Positions 5,301 through 63,920 of a DNA stretch of 64,000 bases are shown piece by piece. Source of the DNA: Mastigias papua. Lineage: Eukaryota; Cnidaria; Scyphozoa; Rhizostomeae; Mastigiidae. Position 1 is the first letter of the stretch. Each line of letters opens with the position of its first letter. The notes beneath the pieces were generated by a model that searched no databases, was not told where the DNA came from, and was given only the letters and a program-made list of their open reading frames with translations. The stretch is taken from NCBI GenBank assembly GCA_964019165.1, contig OZ025283.1, forward strand, positions 5,484,001-5,548,000, in the 5' to 3' direction. Made by a program: the position numbers and the translations under genes.

Positions 5301-8300
5301 TTTCGTTCTTTTAAACTCTTCCTGGATTGTTCTTCTGTGGTTTTAGGTTCTTGAAGCAAGATCTACTCCTGGACATACTGATGGTAAGATGGAACTTTTG
5401 CAAGTATCTTTGAACCAGAATTTTAGAGTTTGTGCTTTTTATCTACTTTACGTGTATTTAAACTCGCGCAGTATTATATTGCACGCACTCTTTTGTGCGT
5501 GAAGTTGAGTACTGCGCGAAAATTCGTACACAAAAATTCGAAAATTCGTGCGCGAAAAGACACTAAACTCAGCACCATCAGACCTCTGCATGCGAAGTGG
5601 ATTACCTCTTTCTTCGATTACATACAGAGCAACAAATTTATCGTGAAAAATAACTGGGAGAGATGCAGCTTTTTAAGTGTGAAGATCGATTTATGGAAAT
5701 TGAAATTCAAATAGAATAAAAAGGGTGATATTTGAATGGAACGATGGATTGTCATTGTAATTTTTTGACAGAAAACAGGTTGTAGCCTTTGATTTTTATT
5801 TAATTTTAGTGTGCTTGCCTGCATTTAAGGTGCGCCAATTTAAATCCCCGGAAATATATCGATTTTCGGTCCGCGAATTTAAACCACACTAATTCAGGCC
5901 CGCGCGCAATATAGCACCGCACGAATTCAAATTCTAATAATATCTTTCATTAAATGAAAAGTACACTTGGTGTATGTTTTTTAGGCTGCATGACTTTTAT
6001 CGATGTCTTCAACAAACGTGCGTTCACTGGTGATGCCTTGCTCATTCGGGCATGTGGGAGAACAGATTTTCAGCAAGGTACATATACAATGTCCTCGAAA
6101 GTGATTACTCTGCTCAGTACAGTATGGAGGTCATTAGCTATTTGAAAGTTGCATTATTAGGGATCATACATTTATGAGATCTAAAGCTATTTTAGTAATG
6201 TTTGATCCCCTTCCTCCCTTGTTGGGCATAGTCTAAATTCTATGCACCCCCTCCTTTACGACGTCTAAACTGTTTTACCAACCCCCCCCCCCGCCACACT
6301 CAACATAAAGCAACCAGAGAAAACATTAAATCTGTTACAAAGAAACTGGACTGCAATAGGACTGAGAGTACCAAGCTAGTAATGCACCCCCTCCTTTACG
6401 ACGTCTAAACTGTTTTACCAACCCCCCCCCCGCCACCCTCAACATAAAGCAACCAGGGAAAACATTAAATCTGTTACAAAGAAACTGGACTGCAATAGGA
6501 CTGAGAGTACCAAGCTAGTAATGAGAATTTACATGAGCATTTTGCTTACATCTTTGAACATGGCAGTAATGAACTACAAAAACTTCTACAAAATCTTTTT
6601 GGACTCATCGTTTTGTCAAATAGGCTGTTGACTAAGTTGTTAAATGTCAAAGAGCCGCATGTAATTCACAAGCCTCTGTGTGGCCACCCCTGACTTGGTA
6701 TGTAATGATTTTTGAAATGTGTTTTTTGGAATTATTAGCGGAGACATTACAATTTATTTTCTGTTTATGATATTTTCACTTAGTTTCATATCTTTATCGT
6801 CGTTCCCATAAATGTTTAGCTGTCTAGCCGTTCCTTCTCATTTTTCTCTTATATTTTATCCTGAGCTGTTGTTATTAATATCACCATAGTACAAAAGTGT
6901 TTCTGTACAAAACTACAAAAAATGTCCAGACCTTTTATGATTAGCACTTGGAAAGGTATACAGTAGCTCATTATCATAATAATAAAAGTTAATTTACAAA
7001 TTCACAGCACAGGACATCAACATTATGATCGAGAGTAGTAGGCCTATACATATAAATACACAAGCACAATAATTTACACTAGTCATTGAGATAAGAGTGA
7101 ATATTAGTCAGTTATTGTCGCAAAAAAAGGAGTCCTAGAATGAAAGTGAACTATTCCTGTGTGTATAGCAGCAAGTTTCTTGCTTTGTTTGAAAGATCCT
7201 CCGATATTTTGACTGAGTGCTCTTTGTAACCAAAATGACATTGACGTCATATTTGACAGGCGAAAACACTTTTTTAACAATTTTAGTCCTTTTATATGAA
7301 GCCACGATTTTTTGATGAACTTCATTTGATTCTCTCTGTTACTCAAAAGATTAATTAGTCAAAAAACCTAGTTTTCTCTCAACTCCTTCCTTCTTTCTTC
7401 TTATCATTGCCATTCCTTTAATGGAGCTACTTCACATTAAATTTCTTCCCCTTTTCTATCCGTCATCATATTTCCTATTCTTGATCTATTTCACACTCAA
7501 CTTCTCACTTCCTGCTTATAATCTCCGTTCTTATACGGAATCTATGTCGCATCCAACTTTTTACTTCTTTCTACCTGTCATCGCCTTTTCTTTGCTTGAC
7601 CTCTTTCACCCTCGACTTTTTCATTTTTTATGCATGTCAACATCTTTCCTGCTTTGGATCTATATACCCTCCACTTATCTTTCACACTTCCCCTATTCTA
7701 TGTCTGTCTTTGGCTTTTTTGCTACCAGCTCTCTTTCATAAGTGAAGTATGTCCCAAACAATTGGATTTGTTCTTCGACGCCACCTTTATTCCCACTAAT
7801 GCAGCGAATCTCATCCGCCGTCACAAGGATTCGCAAACAGTACTAAGAAGTTAAATTTATCTTTTCTAGCAAGAAAACTAAACTGTTTTTTTAATTCCTT
7901 ATTCCGAAGTACATTTTAGCATTTTTTGTGCAGGTGACCCGAGGCAGTTGTATGATTCCGTGCATGAGAGAATTCTCACCTTGCCATCTGAGTTTCTTCT
8001 TTATCCAGCTCATGATTACAAAGGTAAAATTTTTGTGAGCTTTTTCTGCATCTTCAGCCTGGAAAAATCCCATGCAATTTGGATCTACCTAGAAGTTCAA
8101 TTAAACGACTGCTCTTTTTGATTGCTTGGCATTTCATTTCTTTGCAGCTCATTTTATTGATAGCAACAGAATAATGTTTTCCACTTTTTATCACCTGTTT
8201 GACTTCTGCTGCATGGATTTTATTGACGGGCAAGTAAAGGTTGATGTGCGCTGATAATTGTTCTCTGCTTTCCAGAGATAGGGTACAGTGATATAGAAAC

Positions 8301-12540: not shown

Positions 12541-15500
12541 TTAACTCCATATCTTAAATTTTCCTTTGCTTCCATCCTCAAAAAGTCCCTTTACAATGAA
12601 AACTTGAAGAATTCCAACAGCAATCATGATACCACAAGACATCAATGAAAAACCATTCACCCTTGACAAATTGCTCCCCACAAGGAAGTAATGGCGCTTT
12701 TGCTTAGCAGCATAAATCTCGTGATAACGTACAAGCTTTTCTGCATTCTTCAACAAGAGTTCGGATTTTTTCTGAAAAAAAATAGAAAACTTCATGACAG
12801 AAACTCCCTGGAATTTGACAAATAGTAGAACATTAATGCTAAAGAATGTTAAGTTCCAAGGGCTAAGCTCCCTAGGTATTTTCTGTGATTTAGGAATACT
12901 AACAGGCAAGTGAGAAATAACTTTAAATCTATGAAAAGCAATTTCACAAAAGCAATTGGCTACCATTGATGACCTGCTCATGCAACTAAAGTGAGATTCA
13001 CTTTGTAATTGTTTGTATGGCAGTGAACTGCAAGAATTGCTCACCAGTTCAACTCAGCTGTACCCAGTAACCACAAAACCAGTCACAGTGTTACTGTGAA
13101 CAGTCAAAGACCCAGCTATTCATTGGCATGACCATTAAGTATCCCCCTTGTATTAGGAACAAAAGAGTATCGTCTCTGGGCATTGACAGTTTAGACTTTA
13201 CTGCTAAGTATTATGAGGAAAAAATGAGTACAAATGGTCCTTTTGAAAACAACGTCTTTTTCCAACTCAGTCTGTTTTAAAATTATTTGCATATTTTAGT
13301 ACATATAAATATTTTTTAAAAGCTACATTTTGGATACAATGCATTTTCAAATGTCCGACAGGGCATCATCCCAACTTTTGAAAATATGCCCATAAGCTTT
13401 AGGCCAAAATTTTATCAAAGAAAACGTTTGCTCTTAATGTACATGGAAACTGGCCTCTAATGAGTCTTCACTGCAACTTGAGCAATATACATCATTTGCC
13501 ATAGCACCTTCTTTAGAGCCATGTGTACTGTCACATACATTCTGCTATAGTTGAAACTTTGTAAATGCTAAAGTTTTGAGTGTACTACCACATTTGGAAT
13601 AATTTTTGTGCCCCAGGAGGATCTGAACTCACAGACATGCATTATGATTGTGACAAGACACTGCTTGCTATTCCACTGCATAAATCTACATTCAAATCTT
13701 CAAATAGAACAATATAGGAATGAAGCCACACATGTGTATCAACTGAACATGCCTCATCTATTGATAGTGGAATCTTAAATACCATATTTCCTCAAAAGTA
13801 AGCCAGCCCTAGAAAATAAGCCAATTCAAAAACAAGCTGAGATATTTTAGTAGATGCAAGAAAAGTAAGCCCATCTCAAAAATATGCCTAGAGAATGAAA
13901 AGATGTAAAAGATGATAGTGACAAAACTACTTGTTCAAAAGACCGAAGATCTTTGCATGACAGTAAATCATAACTTCATGAATTGATGAAACAAAGTCCT
14001 GATTTAACAGACTATGAGCAATTAAAGAGAAACGAGGTGTTCAAAAGCAGTATTTGCTTAGAAAATGAAGCTGATGCATGGAACAAAGATCAAAATGGAA
14101 TTGTCATTGACAGTTTGCTAGACATTTCATAAGAGGAAATTAGCATTGTGCTACAAAACTGATAATTTAGAAGATTTTTGAAAATTGCTGCTTAAATTAT
14201 ATTTTCTTCATTTTAGAACATACCTTGAAAATAGGCAGATTCAAAAGTAGGCCAAAAATTTCATTTCAAACAAAAAAGCAAGCAGTGGCTCATTTTCAAG
14301 GAAATATGGTAAACTGATTCTGTCCTGCAACAAGGGAGTTGTCCACAAACAATAATACTGATAGCTTCTGAAACAAGTGTATACATACAACCAAATTATT
14401 AGAGCCTTCTGAATTATCTTGAGTTCTTGCAAGTTTGTCAAAAAGTACTGTCATCTCATCAGGTGTTTGGTGATCCACTACTAGTGTTACTACTTTATAT
14501 TCACTGCTAAATGAGTTGTCCAGACATATCTTGTAATCACCACCATCTTTAACATCAAATTCATGATCAGCAGCACTGATACGCTCTTGAGATATAAGTT
14601 CTCGCCCTTTGGGATCTAAAATCTTCCAATTTATCTGTGCATCTCCACCTCTGCTGACCTGTTTACAAGACAAGAAATTCTAGAAATTAGCTGAGATCCT
14701 ATTGACATTAAAGAACTTCCTAAAAGTAATCTTTACAAAGAGACATACCATAAACAATATCATACAACATTCAAATAAGTGGCTGTATAACAATAGGCAC
14801 AACAACAGATTCATTTATTATGAAATCACTTATAACTTATGGTGAGGTAACTAACTCTGTCACTTCTCTCATTTATTGAAAAAATGATTCTCTGGCATAT
14901 AAAACATTTCAATTTTCTCAGTTTCATCCAGATCTTGCCTGGAAAGGTGCTAAATCAAGTGCAAGTGCCCAGAGCATGCCTAAAATTATGCATAGAACAC
15001 AATACATGAACCACCCAAATTCTTGAAATCAAAGGTATGCATTCTTAGAAGGGGTGCAAATCGAGTACCTAACTCATACAAGGAGCTCATTTATTAGAGC
15101 ACCTTTGTTTTCCTCAGGGCAAAGCCTGGTCTCATCTCATCCCAACTCCAGAAACATAATTCATACCATGTTTTTTCATTTTAGTTAGTTGGCACAGCTG
15201 AAATGCAAGTATGTCAGACAAGTCTTACTAGAAAAACCTAGAACTTTAAAAGTTGACAGAATGTAGCATATCAGGTGTATTTTCATCATTTTTTATTCAT
15301 TCATTGTAATCATTTGCTATTCATGTTGTGGGTTTAAATCACTTGTTTACAAACAAACATGTGTGTTTGTCAAGTCCCCTATTGTGTCAGTGACACCTTT
15401 TCTGGCCAATGTGTTAGTCTTTTGTGATTTATGGTATTGCATGCTGATTAGCTTTCAGTTTTATGGTGTCTGCTTTAGTTAATTATTCAAATTCATATAC

Positions 15501-20204: not shown

Positions 20205-21948
20205 TATGTAGTTTAAGACTTGGAAGACTATTAATCAGCTGGTTAATAAGCGGTCTAAAACCACAGATATTTCTTCGCTACAAGAAGACAACAAAATCTT
20301 AACGAGTAGTGATGAAATAGCCGAATCAATGTATCAGTATTTCTGCAGTATTGGACAAAAGTTAAGTGAAAAGATCCCTTATGCAGAAAGCCCACTTATG
20401 CGAGGAGATTTTTCCTTGAAAAAATTCAACTAGGTTTCAGTTTAGAACGATAACCCCGACAGACCTTATGAAGGCAATGCAAAAGTTTAAGGTATCAGAG
20501 AGCTTTGGGATAGATGGCATCTCCAGCTATTTTCTTAAAATAGGGATGCCTGTTCACGCACCAGCGCTGAGTACCATACTTAATAAATCGATTTCGGAGG
20601 GCTTATTTCCAAACAACTGGAAAGTTGCTAGAGTAGCTCCTATCTATAAAGAGGGGCTTACTGAAAACAGGTCAAACTACCGGCCTATATCCGTGCTCCC
20701 GGTTGTTTCACGTCTTTTTGAGAAGACAATTTACCAACTTTACGCCTACTTCGATGGTAATAAGTTGTTCCATTCACATCAGTCCGGCTTCAGGGCCCTG
20801 CACTCAGTTTTGACGTGCTTATTAAAAAGTAGTGATGACTGGTACCATGATTTTGACAAAGGATTCCTTTCATCTGTAGTATTTATTGACTTGAAAAAGG
20901 CCTTTGATATTGTAGATCTAGCAATTCTCATTCAAAAGCTTTGTCATTATGGAGTGCGGGGAAAGGAGCTGGATTGGTTTAAATCATACTTATAGGATCG
21001 TAAGCAATGCTGTAAAGTAAATGGACATACATCAAAAATAGCAAAAGTGAACTGCGGCGTACCGCAAGGATCGTGCCTTGGTCCACTACTATTTTTGATA
21101 TACATAAGTGATTTGCCCTGTGCGTTGCAAAGCACAAAAGTGACCATGTACGCTGATGACACAAGCATTTCGTAAGATTTCCAGAGCAATGGGCATGCTT
21201 AAGTATGCTAAAAAATATCTCCCCCTAGAAATAGTAAAAAACATGTATACAAGTATAGTTGAGCCGCATTTCAGAAACTGCTGCTCGGTGTGGGGTTGTT
21301 GTGGAGAAACCCTGCTTGATAAGCTGCAAAAGCTGCAAAACCGTGCCGCACGAATCGTTACCAACAGCTCTTATGATGCATCATCTCTTCCTTTGATTGG
21401 AAGCTTAGGGCAGTTAACTATAAAAGAAATGATCGAATTTGAAACTGCAACTACAGTTTACAAGTCTCTCCATGGATTAGCTCCTGAATATATGCAGTTA
21501 ATGTTTACAAAATTGTCGGAAAACAATTCACGGTCTCTCCGTAACACCGATACGGATCTAAAAATACCTCGCTTTGCAACCTCTTATGGGCAACGTAGTT
21601 TCTCATATCGAGGTGTGACTGTGTGGAATAAACTATGCACTGAAATAAAAAATACCCCTTCACTGGCTACATTCAAAAATTTGCTGAAACATTCTTTGAA
21701 AAATCAAAGGGTTTGAAAGTTCTTGTACAGCATCAAACTTTTCTTTTTTAACCAGATTATATTGTATATTGAATTTTGTTTATTTTTTGTTACTGATTAG
21801 TATGTACATTAGCGTAGGTTTTTTGACAGGGCACATTGTAAAGCAGTTTTTTATTCTTAATCACTGAATGTATTACCCTGTATAAATAAATAATAATGAA
21901 AATGAAATGAAATGAAATGAAATGAAATGAAATGAAATGAAATGAAAT
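20205..21948 (+). mobile_element. 5'-truncated L2/CR1-like LINE with AAATG tail
   Basis: The sequence starts within the linker between endonuclease and RT (KTWKTINQLVNKRSK at about 20216), continues through the RT and C-terminal region, then a 3' UTR, and ends in AATGA/AATGAA repeats (about 21890-21948). A pentanucleotide tail instead of poly(A) is typical of L2/CR1-related elements. The endonuclease domain is absent. Cannot be autonomous. Confidence 0.85.
20216..21715 (+). pseudogene. LINE ORF2 reverse transcriptase pseudogene
   Basis: RNA-directed DNA polymerase of a non-LTR retrotransposon. Visible blocks in order: SSDEIAESMYQYFCSIGQK; a one-base frameshift at about 20430; [66 protein letters not shown] (catalytic Asp block); a TAG stop at 20993-20995; GVPQGSCLGPLLFLIYISDLP-like block split at the 20-residue limit; MYADDTSIS with the catalytic YADD at about 21149. 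Directly after that, about 100-120 residues normally present are missing and the frame jumps to FRKISRAMGMLKYAKKYLP, KLQNRAARIVTNSSYD, and SYRGVTVWNKLCTEIKN before the natural stop at about 21716. Defects: one frameshift, one stop and one internal deletion, so it is inactive. Confidence 0.85.
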
Positions 21949-44676: not shown

Positions 44677-44682
44677 GAATAA

Positions 44683-44794
44683 ACCACAAATATACTATCC
44701 TTTGAGTGAACGTTTCGATTAAAATCTTTATCTTCATCAGTACTGATGAAGATTTTAATCGAAACGTTTACTTAGAGGATAGTGTATTTGTGGT
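44683..44794. repeat. Near-perfect palindrome with a hammerhead-like core on each strand
   Basis: Arms of 59 and 53 bases meet at CAGTACTG (44738-44745); they differ by a 6-base insertion and a few substitutions. Read outward on the plus strand: CTGATGA (44743-44749), GATT-TT-AATC, GAAAC, then a self-complementary ACGT. The minus strand reads CTGATGA, a longer stem, GAAACGT. This is the order of hammerhead core strands, with one extra A between CTGATGA and the stem. Confidence 0.75.
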
Positions 44795-44842
44795 GTAATT
44801 CTTTTTATGTAATTTATATACGTTGTGGATGCGGCTTAGGAT

Positions 44843-44847
<5 letters not shown>

Positions 44848-44914
<67 letters not shown>
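44848..44914. repeat. (AT)n microsatellite left of the tandem dimer
   Basis: Pure AT dinucleotides for about 65 bases directly abutting ATTAATTCGGCTAAGG. Confidence 0.95.
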
Positions 44915-44918
<4 letters not shown>

Positions 44919-45093
44919 TCGGCTAAGGCTGACATAGGTAAATACTAAGTCATGAGTGAGCCTTAGCCGAATTAATATTATAAAGTACGCTTGGCTCTGA
45001 AGAAGGCATTATAGCCGAAACATAGAGAAGGCCCTAGATGCGTTGAGGGACTCACGGTAGAATGACCTTAAGATTCCACCGCTATTCTTTTGT

Positions 45094-45167
45094 GCCTGGA
45101 TGGCGCAATTGATTAGCACAGGAGTCTTCTGATCTAAACATCGTGAGTTCGAATCCGCACTGGGGCC
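45094..45167 (+). ncRNA. tRNA-like Pol III promoter segment, unit 1
   Basis: TGGCGCAATTGATTAGCAC matches an A box and GAGTTCGAATCC a B box. The D-arm and T-loop resemble tRNA-Arg(TCT), with CTTCTGA in the anticodon-loop position, but the T stem has mismatches and acceptor pairing is poor. I read it as a tRNA-derived SINE-type promoter, not a working tRNA. Confidence 0.6.
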
Positions 45168-45357
45168 AAAATAAATTTTCCAATTGTGGTAGCCCACTCA
45201 TGACTTAGTATTTACCTATGTCAGCCTTAGCCGAATTAATATTATAAAGTACGCTTGGCTCTGAAGAAGGCATTATAGCCGAAACATAGAGAAGGCCCTA
45301 GATGCGTTGAGGGACTCACGGTAGAATGACCTTAAGATTCCACCGCTATTCTTTTGT

Positions 45358-45431
45358 GCCTGGATGGCGCAATTGATTAGCACAGGAGTCTTCTGATCTA
45401 AACATCGTGAGTTCGAATCCGCACTGGGGCC
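45358..45431 (+). ncRNA. tRNA-like Pol III promoter segment, unit 2
   Basis: Exact copy of the segment 264 bases upstream, with the same A and B boxes and the same defects in acceptor and T stems. Confidence 0.6.
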
Positions 45432-45471
45432 AAAATAAATTTTCCAATTGTGGTAGCCCACTCATGACTTA

Positions 45472-45472
<1 letters not shown>

Positions 45473-45513
<41 letters not shown>
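45473..45513. repeat. (AT)n microsatellite right of the tandem dimer
   Basis: Begins inside the unit sequence at GACTTAGTA, where TATT should follow, so the array replaces the rest of a third unit. Confidence 0.95.
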
Positions 45514-45520
<7 letters not shown>

Positions 45521-48500
45521 TATATTTATATTTATGTATTTATCTATAAATGTAGGTTAATAGGTTCGTATCAAAGGAATATGAATAAACAATTTAGGAT
45601 AACGGTCCATCATAAAAACAGTTTGCATTCAGAAATGATATTCTTCTATTGAAAGAAAACTCCCAATTTTCTTGCTGAATCAGTGAAATTCAAAACTTAG
45701 CATCTTATTTAAAAGAATTTAAAATCTTAAGGTAAGTTAGGTTCTTATGGGAGTGATCAAAATCATACCATTTTAGGACAGAATTTCTTAACAGTTGTGG
45801 GTATTTTATGTGGGCTTTTTACGTCATATCTGAATAAAGTGAATAAAGTTGTGTCTGTGGATCGAAAATATTATAATTCGCTTACACAAGAAGAACTGAA
45901 CTGTTTCTTTTCATGCTGGAATTGAAATTCATTGAACAGAAACTTCTTCCCAAGGTAGCAGGGCATAATTGATTATTCTGATGTGTCAAGATATTTACTT
46001 GAGGGCCAGATTACAACTCAATATCTACGCGATGTTTTGGGGGTCTGGATTGATCCGAACACAAATCTTGTAATGTTTTTCTCCATAGTGCAAGAGAGAG
46101 GTCTCGATTTTCATGTAAATGATTATATGATCAACAATTCTTAGATACTTTGATGAACTATCCATTTTGAATTTTGAACGTCCCACTTCTATTAAGTAAT
46201 CAGTATATCTAATCTTGCATATTTCCATTAATGCTGTGATCACAGCTCAATTTGCATACAAGCAACTATTTGTGAGTATCAGACCTCTTCGAATCTGATA
46301 GTCCAGAATGCTCTAAGTGGTGGATAAATATTCTAGTCACGTGGTTTCTTAAGTTCCCCGGCCTTTGTGTCTCAGTCACTTAGCTCTGCAAATATTAGAA
46401 AAAATAATTGATCGTATCTCCTTCTGTAGGATGGGACATTGAATATACTTCTCCATACTTTCAGCAAATATGTGTTTAGTTTGTTACTTAAATCAATAAT
46501 TAGTTTTAAGGTTAGATGGTGGGTGTCAGAAGGAGGTTTCTTTTGCTACGATGTCCTTACTCTATCGTATCGTCCACATAGCGCTTCTGGATCGCACTAT
46601 ATATTCAGAAAGGTATTCCTACATTTTGGAAATAACTGGTTTCAAAACATTCTTAGTTCTTTCATTATTTCAGTACTGAAGCTTTCTTAAGACCTTAACA
46701 AGACTAGCCGAGTATGCGTAGAACTACAGTGTTACACAGACAGGCACTAACACAACCACAAAATCTACTACTTAGGTTGCCACAACAAATCTATGCAAAT
46801 TAAAAGTAAAGCGATGACTGTCTTGCGTGAATAGTGGATTTTAAAGGTATATGACTTAGCAATTTTCATAGGTCACTTTCTTACTAGACTACGTGTAATG
46901 CAAAGCTCAAACTTCGTGAACGCTTAATTATTTTGTTGATTTGAGTTTTTTTAGAAACAAAACAAGTGCACGTTTCTCTTATCTGGACTGACAGTCATTA
47001 CGAAATGATGAGATTTAGAAGCTCGTCAGGGAGTGTCTGTTGCATGCTTGCATAAGAATATAGCCTGTACGAGTATTAATACTCAAGGTCGCTGAGGTTT
47101 CAAATAAGAATAATTTTAAAATAATCTCTGGCTAAAAAAATCAAAAAAATTTAAGAATATTGAGGCTCAGTGAAAAATCAGGTCTTCATATAAAGAAGTG
47201 TGTACGCTAGAAAGACCTATATTAGTTCTAGCTCAGCATAAGACAGCCAGGGGTGCCATAGGAGGGAATGTATAGTGTCAAACTTTCCACTTTTCACAGA
47301 AGTACAAGCGAGGATCCTAATTTCTCAGTAATTATGGAAACTTTTTGTAAATTATGGAACCTTGTTCATGCCTGTCGATAAATGTCTTTTGGTATACCCC
47401 CACTCAAGAGTCCTTCGGTGCGTCACTGACTACAATGCGCTTGCTTACAGCTACAACATATAAAGCCTATAATTAAAGCAAGAGGAGACTTTGGCTTCGA
47501 ATTGAGAACAACTGCCTAGGCTAGTATCTAGAGAGAATAAAGATATAGCACTCAAGGGGACCCAAACTGTTATTTATCCATCGGGTCTCAACTGTTCACT
47601 TAGCAAACTTGTTGTACACTGTAATCAAATTTAGTGATTTTTGCCATTCAAGCCTCCTTTTGATAATGAGGCTACTAACAAGCATTTTGCTGTACCAGTG
47701 ACAACTAGCAGCATTTTCCATGACATAAGCGGAGAAAAGCAAAATGGCATAATGTAGCTTTAGCAAAACCATTAGGTCTAAATGTATTCTTCCTCGTTGA
47801 GTGCATATATGAACCATAGCAGGAATCCATGCTAAGAAATGCGCTACATTGATTTCTATCCATACAGTTAACTGTCATTTTTACTTGTTCATATACTCAA
47901 ATTCAAATTCTCTGTTAGCTGTACCAAAATATTGCTACCTTTTCCCACGTACATTTCCTTACTTTAAGTCTTCTTGCCATAGGAAGCTATTCGATATGAG
48001 AATGTAAACGTTGAACTTGCAGTTGACATTTAAGTGGTTCTTATGCGTATCTCATTGGCTCTGTCTAGACTAATGATCTGGACTTTATCCTACTGCACAT
48101 ATCGTCCTTGCCTTACAGGGAAATCCAAGTTTCATATCAAACCATTTTTATCTCTTCGCTGAACAGACCAAGATCTACCCTTGTGTAGACACATTGAAAA
48201 ATGTTTTCTTTTCTCGTGACTTTTATTTCAGAGATAGCATTCATATGTTTCAATCACTGACATAGTAACCAGTATTAAACATGGCTCATTTTTTCAAAAA
48301 ATGCATTCTATATTATAATTAATCCAGTTAGTTTCTCTCTAAATGCAACAAACAATAATGTAGACGATAAATGAGACAATGTAAAAAATCATGTCAGTTT
48401 TAGTTTTTAGAACAAACAGGAATTCTTGCCAAGGTTGTGCTGATAAACACATAATTCAACATGTTAACTTCTAGATTGATCTTACATGAATCTTAGAGGA

Positions 48501-63854: not shown

Positions 63855-63920
63855 CTAGGCCATTGGCATGCACACAGCTAGGCCATTGGCATGCACACAG
63901 CTAGGCCATTGGCATGCACA
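63855..63920. repeat. 23 bp tandem repeat, 2.9 copies
   Basis: CTAGGCCATTGGCATGCACA followed by CAG repeats at 63855, 63878 and 63901; the third copy stops after GCACA. The copies are identical, so the expansion is recent. Confidence 0.9.

Follow-up and report, generated by a model that had tools for sequence, protein, structure and literature searches.

How did a 264-bp unit that combines a hammerhead-like core with tRNA-like promoter boxes come to lie in two head-to-tail copies between (TA)n tracts? This question is raised by a locus seen in a 64-kb window (the whole stretch of DNA that was analysed), for which an earlier note had proposed a hybrid of retrozyme and SINE. Judged from its sequence, the element is very probably a non-autonomous, Pol III-promoted and hammerhead-processed retrozyme mobilised by Penelope. 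It is also likely that this Penelope-mobilised hybrid of SINE and retrozyme has left copies whose cDNA 5' ends record both in vivo ribozyme cleavage and the site where Pol III starts. Of the earlier proposal, the hammerhead retroelement, the tRNA-like promoter, the tandem arrangement and the Penelope link have all stood, and the part that had to be revised is the type of the ribozyme.

Architecture of the dimeric insert

The direct repeat extends over 44959-45475 (517 nt, 1.96 units), which confirms the two near-identical copies of a 264-bp unit described earlier; the differences between them are confined to bases of the flanks or of the left joint. Both copies belong to the right arm of the insert, where unit 1 (44959..45222, plus strand, 264 nt) has its 5' end at the exact predicted ribozyme cut point and unit 2 (45223..45475, plus strand, 253 nt) ends at a putative reverse transcriptase (RT) start site, site A (unit 253). 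The CTGAAGA, the GGC/GCC hairpin and the GAAAC that had been claimed for each copy were likewise located, with CTGAAGA at 44997 and 45261 and GAAAC at 45017 and 45281. To the left lies a short arm in inverted orientation (44911..44958, minus strand), a 48-nt piece that is the perfect reverse complement (48/48) of the unit junction at 45195-45242 and spans it intact. Its outer end corresponds to a second putative RT start site, site B (unit ~20), with the boundary at 44911 ambiguous by a few bases of TA, and its inner end meets the direct repeat at 44958|44959 with zero overlap.

Unstranded (TA)n tracts, evident from the sequence, border the insert on the left (44848..44910, the presumed target tract) and on the right (45476..45548), and the flanks of the copies are A+T-rich genome-wide too. 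The earlier reading had overlooked the 48-nt inverted piece, the (TA)n on both sides and a relative of the unit near 13430-13690 (minus strand). With tandem hammerhead repeats of 264 bp and a GC content of 43.6%, the unit lies within the limits of retrozymes (~150-450 bp, GC <50%). The longest stop-to-stop frame wholly inside the 264-bp repeat encodes 62 aa, and the repeat holds no ORF with RT and GIY-YIG.

A type III hammerhead across the unit junction

The junction between the units closes as a type III hammerhead, 5'-CTATGT C^AGCC ... GGCT CTGAAGA A GGC ATTATA GCC GAA ACATAG-3', and the complete ribozyme is placed at 45216..45289 on the plus strand by a descriptor scan, flank shuffles, folds and conservation in 66 segments. 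It is composed, all on the plus strand, of a 6-bp stem III (CTATGT/ACATAG, 45216-45221 / 45284-45289), C17 at 45222 with the predicted cut GTC^AGCC at 45222|45223, a 4-bp stem I (AGCC/GGCT, 45223-45226 / 45257-45260), the core CTGAAGA (45261-45267) followed by an extra A (45268), a 3-bp stem II (GGC/GCC, 45269-45271 / 45278-45280) and GAA (45281-45283). Present in this structure are C3UGANGA9, G12A13A14, A15.1-U16.1 and H17, with the three stems in type III order. In unit 1, sequence and scan place a 3' hammerhead half at 44995..45025 (plus strand), which is without the upstream stem III strand, so that the dimer holds one complete ribozyme of the element. The hammerhead-like core of the earlier note has thus held up as a hammerhead with a full core, but it is of type III rather than type I and is complete only across the unit junction. 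As for the doubts raised then, the "ACAT for ACGT" turned out to be the start of ACATAG, a strand of stem III that pairs with CTATGT further upstream, while the extra A is indeed present. A type I reading of CTGAAGA...GAAACAT was rejected, since by eye no stem I can be formed and the descriptor scan gave no type I match there.

In the descriptor scan of both strands, 45216-45289 was the sole type III match in the window. A stem I of at least 4 bp together with a stem III of at least 6 bp around such a core appeared in none of 60 dinucleotide-shuffled windows, and looser type III matches occurred at 0.067 loci per shuffled window. When the flanks of the core were shuffled, the ribozyme was rebuilt in 0/20000 cases with Watson-Crick pairs only, and in 29/20000 with G-U pairs. 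The type III ribozyme in the unit is more than chance.

Folding gave a mixed picture. For a 100-nt stretch the optimal fold has stems II and III, and the complete hammerhead is less stable by 0.4 kcal/mol; when the cleaved unit is folded as a linear molecule without constraints, stem III forms and stem II is absent, and in the circular fold stem III is missing. The extra A after A9 is unusual in a hammerhead core, but an additional core nucleotide is on record for a viroid hammerhead, according to a title cited in PMC4918200. The covariance-model check that had been suggested for the hammerhead came out negative: Rfam scans of the motif with curated models returned zero hammerhead matches, and a search of the genome with RF00163 found no match, its 14 controls being likewise silent. 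The lack of Rfam matches to the motif is perhaps due to the length of the stem I loop and to the additional A. Viral contigs scanned for GCCTTAGCCGAATTAA yielded 4 loci, none with the surrounding unit in the stretches examined, and two further scans of viral contigs, as well as one of genome contigs, gave 0 matches.

The tRNA-like head

Each unit carries on the plus strand a tRNA-like head, at 45092..45166 in unit 1 (A box 45101-45112, B box 45146-45156) and at 45356..45430 in unit 2 (A box 45365-45376, B box 45410-45420). The A and B boxes reported earlier at about 100-160 bases 3' in each copy were found, 104 and 149 nt 3' of CTGAAGA, respectively. Scored against the consensus of the two boxes, the A box has 8/9 and the B box 9/10 of the fixed letters, and the box starts are 45 nt apart, which is the spacing of a tRNA. 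The best pair of A and B boxes in 20 dinucleotide shuffles of the window scored 16 versus 17 in the element, and the margin of the promoter boxes is therefore one letter. By ARAGORN and Rfam no tRNA was detected in the element, in which only the boxes are tRNA-like; in an older subfamily the head appears, by eye, closer to a tRNA. Just 5' of the head, the stretch TTCTTTT (45085..45091, also 45349-45355, plus strand) could possibly function as a weak Pol III terminator.

Genome copies and their 5' ends

A search of the genome (346.8 Mb, 172 contigs) with the unit gave 135 matches, with 40/857 candidates scored, and young copies dominate the sample for that reason. The analysis of arms covered 38 fetched loci and the window, that is, 39 loci with 69 arms (67 arms without the window), after four pieces shorter than 40 nt or below 88% identity (L052 contributed two, L053 and L054 one each) had been dropped before counting. 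The arms measure from 42 to 1872 nt, 49/69 are longer than one unit, the maximum is 7.1 units, and the units inside one locus are nearly identical. Relatives had also been reached through chance minus-strand reading frames in nine ORF proteins (P0121-P0129). The ribozyme codons of P0121, P0124, P0127 and P0128 are compatible with the letters of the window save for two changes: P0127 has one outside the core, and a single junction of P0124 has one at 16.2. The remaining five proteins end or leave the element before the ribozyme region, or were left uncompared, and the genome copies have superseded this comparison as a whole.

The cut point GTC^AGCC was recorded before the other genome copies were seen, and the window was omitted from the test of 5' ends because its breakpoint 44958|44959 was already known and coincides with the predicted cut. 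Arms that start exactly at the predicted bond (unit 1) amounted to 11/67 in the automatic count (P 6e-15), each in a different locus, and to 14/67 after the correction by hand of six arms in which variant bases had halted the automatic walk, with 0.25 expected; when the window is included, the counts become 12/69 and 15/69. The next highest single start position had 3 arms after correction and 5 (unit 26) before it. Since some loci share flanks, adjoining the same repeats, not all of them are strictly independent; with one arm drawn per locus, a mean of 8.8 (minimum 4) of 39 was found at unit 1. Within the arms 104 unit junctions are crossed and 15 arms stop at one (corrected count), so that the copies show reading through uncut junctions as well as stopping at the predicted cut. 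That cDNA ends are overrepresented at the predicted bond suggests a genomic read-out of ribozyme cleavage.

A further group of arms, 10/69, starts at unit 132-144, near the tRNA-like head (3.4 expected, P 0.003). Three of these ten start exactly at 134, the first base of the head, and two are the twin arms of a single locus, L040. At L040:607-2091, two arms that mirror each other, both running from unit 144 to 26, form a large palindrome around a spacer of ~660 nt, and both outer ends lie at site B, unlike those of most other loci. Among L035-L072, small clusters of 5' ends at unit 141-144 and 210-212 are not clearly accounted for by the ribozyme or by the presumed Pol III start.

Conservation and an older subfamily

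In junction-spanning segments, of which 66 from 31 loci were used, namely those aligned over nearly the whole ribozyme, a core change was found once (G12A). Variant cells number 15/2508 in the ribozyme versus 47/3554 among the other cells, and most of the variants are found in the loop of stem I and at the distal stem III pair, which is broken in 7/66.

A divergent and older subfamily (L124-L139 and L123) gave 55 matches, with 40/530 candidates scored. As judged by eye in 16 loci and L123, CTGAAGA is intact in 11/17 readable cores and GAAAC in 13/17, the rest being decayed, and GTC^AGCC is intact in 8/14 readable junctions. The identity to the unit of the window is 90.1% (538/597) in the ribozyme versus 76.0% (2027/2666) in the rest, with 82.7% (153/185) in the B box region and 75.7% (109/144) in the A box region; these values come from local alignments (24 pieces, 16/17 loci), a procedure that flatters the rest. 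The ribozyme is thus kept above background, the B box slightly so, and the A box not. In the L123 copy (minus strand), which adjoins (CA)n, stem III reads ACACA/TGTGT versus ACATA/TATGT in the unit, with both sides changed, and G8 is lost.

The relative of the unit inside the window (13430..13690, minus strand) is an old, decayed and monomeric copy, with CTAAAGA in the core and GAAAC absent. It is degenerate (E 1e-12) and keeps remnants of the tRNA-like boxes; its relationship is statistically secure only over 13507-13632, and homology beyond this core is uncertain. A genome search with this relative returned only itself and L123. The earlier note had held that copies which lose CTGANGA and GAAA while keeping the tRNA-like part would speak against its reading; such a copy does occur, in the old one at 13.5 kb, but not in the young family, where a core change is seen in 1/66.

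3' ends, pairing of the arms and targets

The outer (3') ends of the 69 arms fall at unit 252-261 in 30 cases (site A), at 14-26 in 36 (site B) and elsewhere in 3, and 31 nt separate the commonest positions, 253 and 20. All two-armed loci (29/29) are head-to-head, and ten loci are one-armed. One arm of each end kind is present in 22/26 classifiable two-armed loci (P 0.0003; 3/29 are unclassifiable), one arm ending near unit 253 and the other ~31 nt further. In 64/69 arms, A+T makes up at least 90% of the 30-nt outer flank. A 3' end of the SINE type, with poly(A) or a short repeat and a LINE-like insertion, was not found in this set, in which 66/69 arms end at the two internal sites into (TA)n-rich flanks. 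Sites A and B are AU-rich (UAU-rich) spots able to pair with (TA)n, and pairing with the target alone might fix the two start sites.

The Penelope of the same genome

Animal Penelope inserts have been described as inverted head-to-head pLTR copies, one of which can carry a characteristic 31-bp tail, and as having AT-rich targets (PMC3846280). In vitro, a lizard Penelope is reported to cut AT-rich DNA and to extend both strands, with reverse transcription from two adjacent internal sites that match the tail (PMC11167929). The genome analysed here contains an ORF with an RVT_1 match and a GIY-YIG match that scores 21.1, just under the cut-off of 22.6. For the Penelope end region, 150 copies were scored among 1339 candidates, and neighbouring copies within 7 kb were head-to-head in 27 cases and tandem in 1. 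From these 27 head-to-head pairs 18 were hand-picked and fetched, and 16/18 have one short arm and one tailed arm, each ending at a (TA)n run, the exceptions being L086/L087 and L092/L093. The first (TA)5 run past the hammerhead motif was taken as the arm end, so that these ends lie "in (TA)n" by construction, and one arm without an exact motif (L116) was classed as tailed by eye. The arms end 58-62 nt versus 101-106 nt past the start of the minimal hammerhead motif, and the tail is therefore ~44-48 nt here, longer than 31.

In the window, a Penelope-like element end (44680..44847, unstranded), which belongs to this very Penelope, forms a palindrome in which one arm is short and the other, the right one, has the tail, with minimal type I hammerhead motifs at 44743 (plus) and 44740 (minus). 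In the fetched flanks, Penelope ends adjoin 9/39 loci of the element. Between the RT start region of the element and the Penelope end no significant shared sequence was detected, and a weak GSCTTWG-like resemblance was seen by eye ~16 nt before site B. Because no sequence is shared, recognition by Penelope, if it occurs, would rest on structure, short motifs or target pairing. The Penelope link suggested earlier is supported by the head-to-head arms, one of which is tailed in 22/26 classifiable two-armed loci, as in 16/18 of the fetched Penelope pairs.

Proposed mechanism and alternative explanations

Pol III would start at the tRNA-like head and read through the tandem, which would yield RNA multimers. 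The type III hammerhead, which needs the junction of two units to form, would then cut GTC^AGCC, and the cut ends may be left free, or the RNA may stay multimeric or become circular. As the genomic footprint shows, cDNAs begin at unit ~253 and ~20, flanking the cut point, in (TA)n and on both target strands; they traverse up to 7 units and halt often at the cut point, sometimes near the tRNA-like head. Such stops can be read as run-off of the RT at natural RNA 5' ends. Joining of the two cDNAs 5' to 5' then yields the head-to-head insert. The enzyme is presumably the multi-copy RT/GIY-YIG Penelope of the same genome, whose inserts share this architecture.

An ordinary tRNA-derived SINE with a stem-loop that resembles a hammerhead, mobilised by a LINE and dimerised by template jumping, would account for the A and B boxes and for those arms that start at the tRNA-like head, and a LINE-type RT lies within the window. 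However, the commonest 5' end is the predicted ribozyme bond and not the head, the 3' ends are at neither poly(A) nor TTTT, the head-to-head arms with a tail on one are Penelope features, and the older subfamily keeps the ribozyme positions better than the rest of the unit. Such an origin is quite unlikely. Tandem amplification of DNA by unequal crossing over or palindrome-mediated rearrangement, with no RNA step, agrees with the near-identical units per locus and with the palindromes, but the 39 loci are dispersed, share one pair of outer ends and repeatedly have their inner end at a single bond, which makes it extremely improbable.

It is also conceivable, though unlikely, that the same element was moved by a different RT and that its start sites were fixed only by pairing of the AU-rich RNA with (TA)n ends. 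Both sites are at UAU-rich spots and no significant sequence is common to the element and the Penelope end; yet the pairing of a short with a tailed arm (22/26) matches that of the Penelope inserts of the same genome (16/18 fetched). The 9/39 loci that adjoin Penelope ends point the same way, although a common preference for (TA)n explains that too.

Relation to known systems

The retrozyme moved by Penelope that is favoured here has close counterparts in the metazoan non-LTR retrozymes of the coral Acropora millepora, a mussel and the axolotl, for which Penelope is a candidate helper (PMC7229834). Like the present element, they consist of small tandem units (220-240 bp in the coral) of low GC with a hammerhead per repeat, and Penelope elements occur in the genomes that contain them; their hammerhead, however, is of type I, in contrast to type III here (PMC7229834). 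Penelope is a candidate helper in those accounts; the insert architecture supports it in the present case. According to a 2020 review, retrozymes do not seem to harbour promoters, unlike the present element with its Pol III-like promoter in every unit (PMC7761336). For the combination of a tRNA-derived part with a hammerhead, the closest precedent is given by the schistosome Sm-alpha/Sj-alpha, which are tandem or SINE-like and have both (PMC2770079, PMC8490949, PMC4918200). The Sm-alpha hammerhead is of type I, unlike the type III found here, and the available text of these three sources describes no Penelope-like insert architecture or cut-point footprint for them.

With animal Penelope elements the present one shares head-to-head arms, a tail on one, AT-rich targets, internal RT starts, a hammerhead and partial tandems (PMC3846280, PMC11167929), but it has no ORF, and its ribozyme is of type III, not minimal type I. 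Plant LTR retrozymes are likewise non-autonomous retroelements with a type III hammerhead; they are, however, 600-800 nt long compared with 264 nt here, and belong to another host group with another target (PMC4918200). No LTR arrangement was seen in the element. A type III hammerhead with an unusually long helix I is known in animals from HDV-like agents and dipteran genomes, as here, but in circular RNA replicons or genomic motifs and not in a tRNA-headed retroelement (PMC7936874), and a type III hammerhead with a very large helix I is described in mammalian Clec2 genes (PMC6155905).

In the literature surveyed, most subscription papers aside, neither a type III, Pol III-headed retrozyme nor a demonstration of Penelope moving retrozymes was found. 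The machinery that moves animal retrozymes was left open in the 2020 papers, with Penelope as a strong candidate (PMC7229834, PMC7761336). Since one genome here has both side by side, and their inserts are built alike down to the tail on one arm, the link between retrozymes and Penelope becomes directly testable. If the proposed reading is true, these copies would constitute genomic evidence for the mobilisation of animal retrozymes by Penelope, and a Pol III promoter inside the unit would explain how this particular retrozyme is transcribed.

Other features of the window

An exon with a p24/GOLD (EMP24) domain lies at 12544-13053 (minus strand), and fragments of a LINE-type reverse transcriptase at 20420-21713 (plus strand), with RVT_1 in the first fragment and 1396 protein relatives of the second. 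An animal host is consistent with the p24/GOLD exon, the LINE and the GIY-YIG Penelope. A second two-copy tandem repeat, of 139 bp with a 97% match, is present at 6242-6523, and a perfect 23-bp tandem repeat occurs in 2.9 copies at 63855-63920.
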